DNA of 64,000 nt, from contig NC_090156.1 in the NCBI RefSeq assembly GCF_017916325.1, forward strand, positions 437,501 to 501,500. The letters are read 5' to 3'. The translations under genes and the position numbers were made by a program. Positions 1 to 1,595 of this stretch are shown in pieces (positions within the stretch are counted from its first letter, which is position 1; the number at the start of each line of letters is the position of its first letter). The notes under the pieces were generated by a model. That model ran no database searches. It saw nothing but the letters and a program-made list of their open reading frames with translations, and was not told the DNA's origin. The DNA is from Leishmania martiniquensis. Lineage: Eukaryota > Euglenozoa > Kinetoplastea > Trypanosomatida > Trypanosomatidae.

Positions 1-1595
1 AGCACTCTTTCGATATAAGGCGAGCGCGACACGTCTCGCAGTCGCACACCAACGTCGGAGCGTCGCAGTAGTCGCACTGTAATGCGCTCGTACACGGCAC
101 TGCTGGCGCTCGCGTACGGGTCGTAGCCGAGCCGCAGTCGCAGGCGGTTGAATGGGCCGTTGCGGATGAGGTACGTGAAACACTGCATCACTTGCTTGTT
201 GCGGTACGCGCGCGGACACAGACCTGACTCTAACATGGCGTCCTGCAGGTCCTGCACCACCCACGACGGCCGCTCCGCCAGCAGCCGCACCATCATTTGG
301 ACCTCAGGCGGGTCGCTGCTGAGGCCACCGTCGAGGGAGCTTCCCATCGAGCGCAGGAAGCTGTCGTGCGCCGCCTGCCGCGTCGGCAACAAGGACGACT
401 CCTCAGCGCTGATACTGATCGTCGGTAGCGTTGCTAAATCGTACTGCGCCGTTGCCGAGTCACCGTTGCCTTCCACCGCGAGCCTGTCACCCCCCGACGC
501 TGTTGCTGCAGAGGCGGCCGCCACGGTGGTGTTCGGGTCTCTGCCGGGCTCGTACCGCACCTCAAACGGGGCCCGCGAGCTCAGGAAGTGCTGCGGTGGG
601 AAGACGTCCGCGCCGCAGAGCGACGGCGCTGCCTGCAGCTGCTCCGGTGTGAACAGCGCAAACGTAAAGTCGGCTGGACGTGCCAGCTCCATCTCGCGCG
701 ACACCACCCCAATAACTTCTGCGCTCAAGCCACTCTTTTCGGGCGTCTCACGCGCGTCTCTGTTGTCGTGCGCAGATCCCCTTCGGTCCTCTTCGACCTC
801 GACTACGTCCTCCTCGCGAAGCACCGCGTTGGTGAGGGGGTCACGGTACCGGCGGATGCAGCGGCGCTGTCGAACCTGCAGCAGCAGGTCGTTACGGTAG
901 TACCCGTTGACGAGCAACTGCGGCTCAGTCGAGGCAAACACTTCGCGACGGCGACGCTTCTGCGCTCGCAGGTGCGCCGCCTCCGCTGCACCTTTTTCAC
1001 CCTGTGCATCCGTGCACCCACCCCAGACGAACTCACGGTCACTTACACCATCCTCCTCATCGTTGTTGTCGTCGTCGCTGTCCCAGTTTGTGCTGCGCCA
1101 CCCGCTGAAGATCGGTACCGTGCAGTAGTGGCGTTGATGGCGCGTGAGGAGGCGCAGCTTCCGCTGCTGGCCGCCCGCCGCCTGGACAGCGGCCCGCTTC
1201 GACACGGTGGACGGAAGGGCACGGGATGCACTGTCGTCGCTGTGCCCGCCGCTACTGCTACTCTGCACGTCGTCGCCGTTCTCATCCTCTCCTTCCAGCT
1301 CGCCGGCGTCACCCTGCGCGCTGCCCACATCTCCGCGAGCGGTCGGCTGCTGTGGCGTAGCGCTGTGGAGACACGGAGCGACAAACGAGGCAGGCAGGAA
1401 GGCCTCCAGCTCGCGCCGCTGTCCCGCGTATGCCGACGTGCTTGACTGATCTGCACCGTCGAGCATGCCGGACAATGTGGTGACGGTTGGTGCCATCGTG
1501 AAGGGCAGTTCAACGCTGATGTAGCTTCGAAACGCCGGCATGCCGGGCTGCTCACCGCCAGTGGCAGTAGCCGGCGAGCTGTTTAGGGCAGTCAT
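1..1595 (-). CDS. TFIIIC tau95 / GTF3C5-like subunit (C-terminus cut by window edge)
   Basis: An open frame of about 531 codons runs from an ATG at 1593-1595 off the left edge. I read it as the tau95 (yeast Tfc1, human GTF3C5) subunit of the RNA polymerase III factor TFIIIC. Seen: an N-terminal strand SYISVELPF (from residue 24), an acidic insert (about 75-215), then EPQLLVNGYYRNDLLLQVR (about 224-242) and SAEVIGVVSREMEL (about 291-304). These have the order and spacing of the two halves of the tau95 dimerisation barrel. Residues about 433-510 hold LLAERPSWVVQDL, then YLIRNGPFNRLRLRLGYDP, matching the family's DNA-binding winged helix (human: an RPIWSR motif, then GPW..LW.R.GYDPR). In other eukaryotes this subunit helps bind the A box of tRNA genes. 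The acidic insert is larger than usual. The family match rests on remembered family motifs, not a search. Confidence 0.8.
   Translation of the reverse strand, partial: MTALNSSPATATGGEQPGMPAFRSYISVELPFTMAPTVTTLSGMLDGADQSSTSAYAGQRRELEAFLPASFVAPCLHSATPQQPTARGDVGSAQGDAGELEGEDENGDDVQSSSSGGHSDDSASRALPSTVSKRAAVQAAGGQQRKLRLLTRHQRHYCTVPIFSGWRSTNWDSDDDNNDEEDGVSDREFVWGGCTDAQGEKGAAEAAHLRAQKRRRREVFASTEPQLLVNGYYRNDLLLQVRQRRCIRRYRDPLTNAVLREEDVVEVEEDRRGSAHDNRDARETPEKSGLSAEVIGVVSREMELARPADFTFALFTPEQLQAAPSLCGADVFPPQHFLSSRAPFEVRYEPGRDPNTTVAAASAATASGGDRLAVEGNGDSATAQYDLATLPTISISAEESSLLPTRQAAHDSFLRSMGSSLDGGLSSDPPEVQMMVRLLAERPSWVVQDLQDAMLESGLCPRAYRNKQVMQCFTYLIRNGPFNRLRLRLGYDPYASASSAVYERITVRLLRRSDVGVRLRDVSRSPYIERV

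Follow-up and report, generated by a model that had tools for sequence, protein, structure and literature searches.

A probable Tau95 subunit of transcription factor TFIIIC encoded at the edge of a Leishmania martiniquensis genomic stretch

The 64,000-nucleotide stretch of Leishmania martiniquensis DNA analysed here (NC_090156.1, positions 437,501 to 501,500; hereafter the window) holds at its left edge, on the minus strand, a gene which is almost certainly the ortholog of L. major LmjF.21.1100. It would thus encode the Tau95 (GTF3C5/Tfc1/Sfc1) subunit of TFIIIC, a factor of RNA polymerase III (Pol III) that supports the initiation of tRNA synthesis. Our basis for this identification is the sequence family of the protein, together with the fold modelled for an ortholog's DNA-binding region. 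Following the upstream stop, the frame has its first ATG at 1593-1595; it runs on past the left edge, so that the window holds the 5´ part of the gene. P0001, a protein of 690 amino acids, is 100% identical to the window protein along its whole visible length. The parts discussed below are as follows (window coordinates, with residues of the window protein):

3..1595, minus strand: Tau95 (TFIIIC subunit 5), N-terminal 531 residues (open reading frame; PF09734 in relatives)
72..605, minus strand: Pfam PF09734, Tau95 helix-turn-helix (HTH)/DNA-binding region, residues 331-508 (hmmscan, expectation value E 3.5e-21)
3..359, minus strand: winged helix within the DNA-binding region, residues 413-531 (conservation; fold of ortholog P0018)
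1500..1526, minus strand: SYISVELPF, first putative barrel strand, residues 24-32 (conservation; low-confidence model)
870..926, minus strand: EPQLLVNGYYRNDLLLQVR, putative barrel strand, residues 224-242 (conservation; low-confidence model)
684..725, minus strand: SAEVIGVVSREMEL, putative barrel strand, residues 291-304 (conservation; low-confidence model)
1158..1358, minus strand: variable linker 1, residues 80-146 (length variation, composition)
1080..1157, minus strand: conserved block of 26 residues separating the two linkers, residues 147-172 (constant length)
951..1079, minus strand: variable linker 2, residues 173-215 (length variation, composition)

The match of the window protein to PF09734 scores 76.9 bits, where the curated cut-off is 23.7, with all 144 profile positions aligned. 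It is the sole Pfam family found by hmmscan at E <= 10, and NCBIfam gave no match at E <= 1. A six-frame search of the source genome (32.3 Mb, 41 contigs) reported one PF09734 match genome-wide, and none of the 14 control genomes was matched. The original prediction had picked out a TFIIIC tau95 (GTF3C5/Tfc1)-like protein from five strings assigned to the barrel and the winged helix. All five occur in the translated frame and follow the stated order: besides the three barrel strings listed above, these are AERPSWVV (residues 440-447) and NGPFNRLRLRLGYDP (479-493).

Three protein searches listed 26 relatives in total (P0001-P0026); each scored about 8,000 candidates, those with the most words in common, and relatives from outside the trypanosomatids may therefore be missed. 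All 18 proteins listed at E <= 0.001 in the first search, P0001 among them, have PF09734. The second search used the 18-row alignment A1 as its profile and contributed a single further row (P0019); the third, with residues 175-590 of P0018 as query, added seven Trypanosoma proteins. PF09734 is matched in every row of the 26-row alignment A2, which consists of P0002-P0026 and the window protein; P0001 was excluded from both alignments and from the tree. The rows with organism names come from trypanosomatids only (Leishmania, Porcisia, Novymonas, Leptomonas, Phytomonas, Trypanosoma). Some relatives already carry names such as 'Transcription factor IIIC subunit 5' or 'RNA polymerase III transcription factor (TF)IIIC subunit', and others are labelled hypothetical by at least one source. 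In a protein tree of 13 of the 18 A1 rows (without P0011-P0015), the window protein pairs with P0002 (support 100/99), and the open fork around this pair also contains L. braziliensis, L. major, L. donovani, L. tarentolae, Porcisia and Novymonas. A source species of the Leishmania lineage is thus likely, and the subgenus Mundinia would be compatible with this as a tentative guess.

The winged-helix part is 47-97% identical to the window protein among the 25 other A2 rows. Because the model of the window protein came out poor, the fold evidence was taken from the ortholog P0018. Its modelled DNA-binding region matches the folds of 9gi4, 4bji and 6yj6, the last being yeast tau95, and the comparison recovers the winged-helix and winged-helix-interacting fold of the Tau95/GTF3C5 DNA-binding region. 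In addition to the family profile and the fold comparison, a profile search of the PDB backs the Tau95/GTF3C5/Tfc1 identity.

The biological point itself is already published. A 2024 report identifies LmjF.21.1100 and Tb927.10.980 as Tau95, with HHpred values of 100% and E 3.0e-40 and 1.9e-40, respectively, and finds the protein to be nuclear in both L. major and T. brucei (PMC10781861). Tandem purification of Tau95 from both species yielded Tau55, Tau131 and Tau138 (PMC10781861). Chromatin immunoprecipitation (ChIP) of T. brucei Tau95 showed occupancy of tRNA and U2 genes, no signal at 5S rRNA, and low occupancy at one rRNA and one spliced leader (SL) RNA promoter; according to a section heading, attempts to knock down TbTau95 were unsuccessful (PMC10781861). 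Both experiments that the original prediction had suggested are thus in print for orthologs: co-purification was done in the two species, and tRNA genes were tested by ChIP in T. brucei. Trypanosomatid TFIIIC was held to be absent until the papers of 2021 and 2024 (PMC7920299, PMC10781861), the former of which found the Tau131 ortholog with Brf1 (PMC7920299). A further 2024 paper describes all four TFIIIC subunits with Pol III subunit C82 in T. brucei, where the association is strong, and just a weak association in L. major (PMC11894013). The view of this protein as a core Pol III factor that had escaped notice is therefore out of date. The identification as Tau95 is nevertheless correct, and to have spotted a factor of such low identity from the sequence letters alone was a good catch.

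In general, the N-terminal module of Tau95 pairs with Tau55, its C-terminal DNA-binding region binds box A, and the subunit links to Tau131, the recruiter of TFIIIB (PMC10781861). We infer by analogy that Tau95 of the source species behaves like that of L. major and T. brucei. By orthology, its N-terminal blocks would most likely form a beta-barrel module for dimerization with Tau55. The winged-helix and winged-helix-interacting region would most likely contact box A of tRNA genes and of tRNA-like elements upstream of small nuclear RNA (snRNA) genes. TFIIIC would then help to position TFIIIB and Pol III.

Several observations weigh against the identification as Tau95. The last part of the gene lies outside the window. 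As a single sequence searched against the PDB, the window protein finds Sfc1 at just E 0.06 and GTF3C5 at 1.3, and with the 18-row profile two unrelated chains stand above two Tau95 chains, all at E 0.6-0.97. The window protein model, built from 18 rows, has a mean predicted local distance difference test score (pLDDT) of 41.5, and P0018, which supplies the fold evidence, is 36% identical to the window protein. The barrel region is of low confidence in both structure models. PF17682, the Tau95_N barrel family, has no match in the window protein, whether whole or as residues 1-304 alone, and is found below threshold in just three of the 26 rows (P0003 E 0.004, P0005 0.013, P0016 0.023); these matches cover profile positions 58-120, the best with 17.9 bits against a cut-off of 23.1.

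The missed barrel profile and the poorly modelled barrel region would suit a true Tau95 homolog in which the barrel pairing with Tau55 has been lost or altered in the lineage, leaving chiefly a DNA-binding subunit. We consider this highly improbable, since residues 216-262 and 292-352 are well conserved (43-98% and 44-97% identical to the window protein, respectively, in the 25 other A2 rows), Tau55 ranks with the most abundant of the proteins that co-purify in both T. brucei and L. major (PMC10781861), and low model confidence is compatible with a shallow alignment and an absent partner. The putative strands themselves, although weakly detected by profile, are conserved. In the 18 rows, E29, L30, P31 and F32 are invariant, as are P225, Q226, L228, G231, R234, N235, D236 and L238, and further V294 and G296-R300. 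The low-confidence window model places strands at 24-29, at 231-243 (overlapping EPQLLVNGYYRNDLLLQVR) and at 290-304. The sub-threshold stretch of P0003 corresponds to about window residues 234-312, from RNDLLLQVR through VVGVVSRE, which agrees with the original strand assignment without proving it. That the protein is an unrelated winged-helix protein (RAP30/TFIIF-like or with a cullin-type winged helix), resembling Tau95 in the common HTH fold alone, has a negligible chance of being true in view of the PF09734 match, the P0018 fold matches and, as far as the L. major ortholog is concerned, its co-purification with Tau55 and Tau131 (PMC10781861).

Preferring the Tau95 identification, we turn to the linkers. 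The acidic insert of about 140 residues described earlier consists in fact of two shorter linkers flanking a conserved block, and just patches of it are acidic. Residues 76-219 contain 25 acidic (D/E) and 18 basic (K/R) residues of 144; marked acidity is limited to residues 92-112 in linker 1 (8 D/E, 0 K/R) and 172-190 at linker 2 (10 D/E, 1 K/R). The block between them measures 26 residues in all 26 A2 rows, and Y157, F163 and W166 are invariant (18 rows). Linker 1 varies from 18 to 119 residues: it has 67-86 in 14 rows (nine of Leishmania, Porcisia, Novymonas and Leptomonas, including the window protein, and five further ones), 18-33 in eight Trypanosoma rows, 58-59 in Phytomonas, 119 in P0015 and 77 in P0019. 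Linker 2 varies from 8 to 72 residues. Among relatives, the blocks stay conserved and the linkers diverge; together with the PF09734 match, this tells us that the observation is not due to chance. P0019, a Tau95 relative of 1007 residues and 31% identical to P0018, exceeds every other of the 26 rows in length at window residues 173-215 and at 353-412. The acidic C-terminal tail expected of Tau95/GTF3C5 would fall outside the window; in the 25 other rows, the C-terminal 60 residues contain 10-26 D/E and 0-7 K/R. There is just a slight chance that the two variable, partly acidic linkers within the N-terminal module serve as a regulatory device specific to the lineage. If they did, growth of linker 1 could accompany the difference between T. 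brucei and L. major in C82-TFIIIC association, and the linker could, for example, shield a surface or weaken DNA binding.

Searches of the source genome for PF17682, PF10419 (TFIIIC_sub6/Tau55), PF04182 (B-block) and PF12657 (TFIIIC_delta) gave no match. These misses are not proof of absence, because the control genomes were matched so poorly: three of the four profiles had no match in any of the 14, and PF04182 was found in four, all bacteria or archaea. Within the window, ARAGORN found no tRNA genes, and in cmscan no Rfam family reached its gathering score. On the other side of the Tau95 gene lies a plus-strand kinase gene (Pkinase E 6.5e-72, L002 498-1400), which is probably that of the cdc2-related kinase CRK1. 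The window further contains, on the minus strand:

3127-8433: protein of 1768 residues carrying calmodulin-binding IQ motifs (PF00612 E 2.5e-11); its TPR matches are weak and do not reach their cut-offs
9072-10964 and 60260-61927: two WD40 proteins (PF00400 E 9.2e-17 and 2e-10), with no evidence tying them to Tau60/Tau91 or TFIIIC
38609-40006: 465-residue leucine-rich-repeat protein (PF13855 E 1.1e-28)
43630-45984: PIF1-like helicase (PF05970 E 1e-29)
53060-57385: 1441-residue protein with FAZ1 conserved domain (PF23398 E 6.9e-19)
16597-21486, 26554-27771, 30557-33862 and 47916-49010: open frames of 1629, 405, 1101 and 364 amino acids, with no Pfam match at E <= 0.001

Compared with known systems, the window protein shares PF09734 and, through its ortholog, the fold of the DNA-binding region with S. 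pombe Sfc1 (4bji), S. cerevisiae Tfc1/tau95 (6yj6) and human GTF3C5 (9gi4). Sfc1 is 17.0 and 16.7% identical to Tau95 of T. brucei and L. major, respectively (PMC10781861). Unlike these counterparts, the trypanosomatid protein has variable linkers between its N-terminal blocks, and neither Tau60 nor Tau91, both WD40 proteins, was recovered as a partner in the published trypanosomatid purifications (PMC10781861). From Tau95 of L. major and T. brucei, the window protein differs in species and in the length and sequence of its linkers, whereas family and block order are identical. P0004, from L. major strain Friedlin, shares 78% identity with the window protein, and its computed mass of 76.5 kDa equals the size printed for LmjF.21.1100 (PMC10781861).
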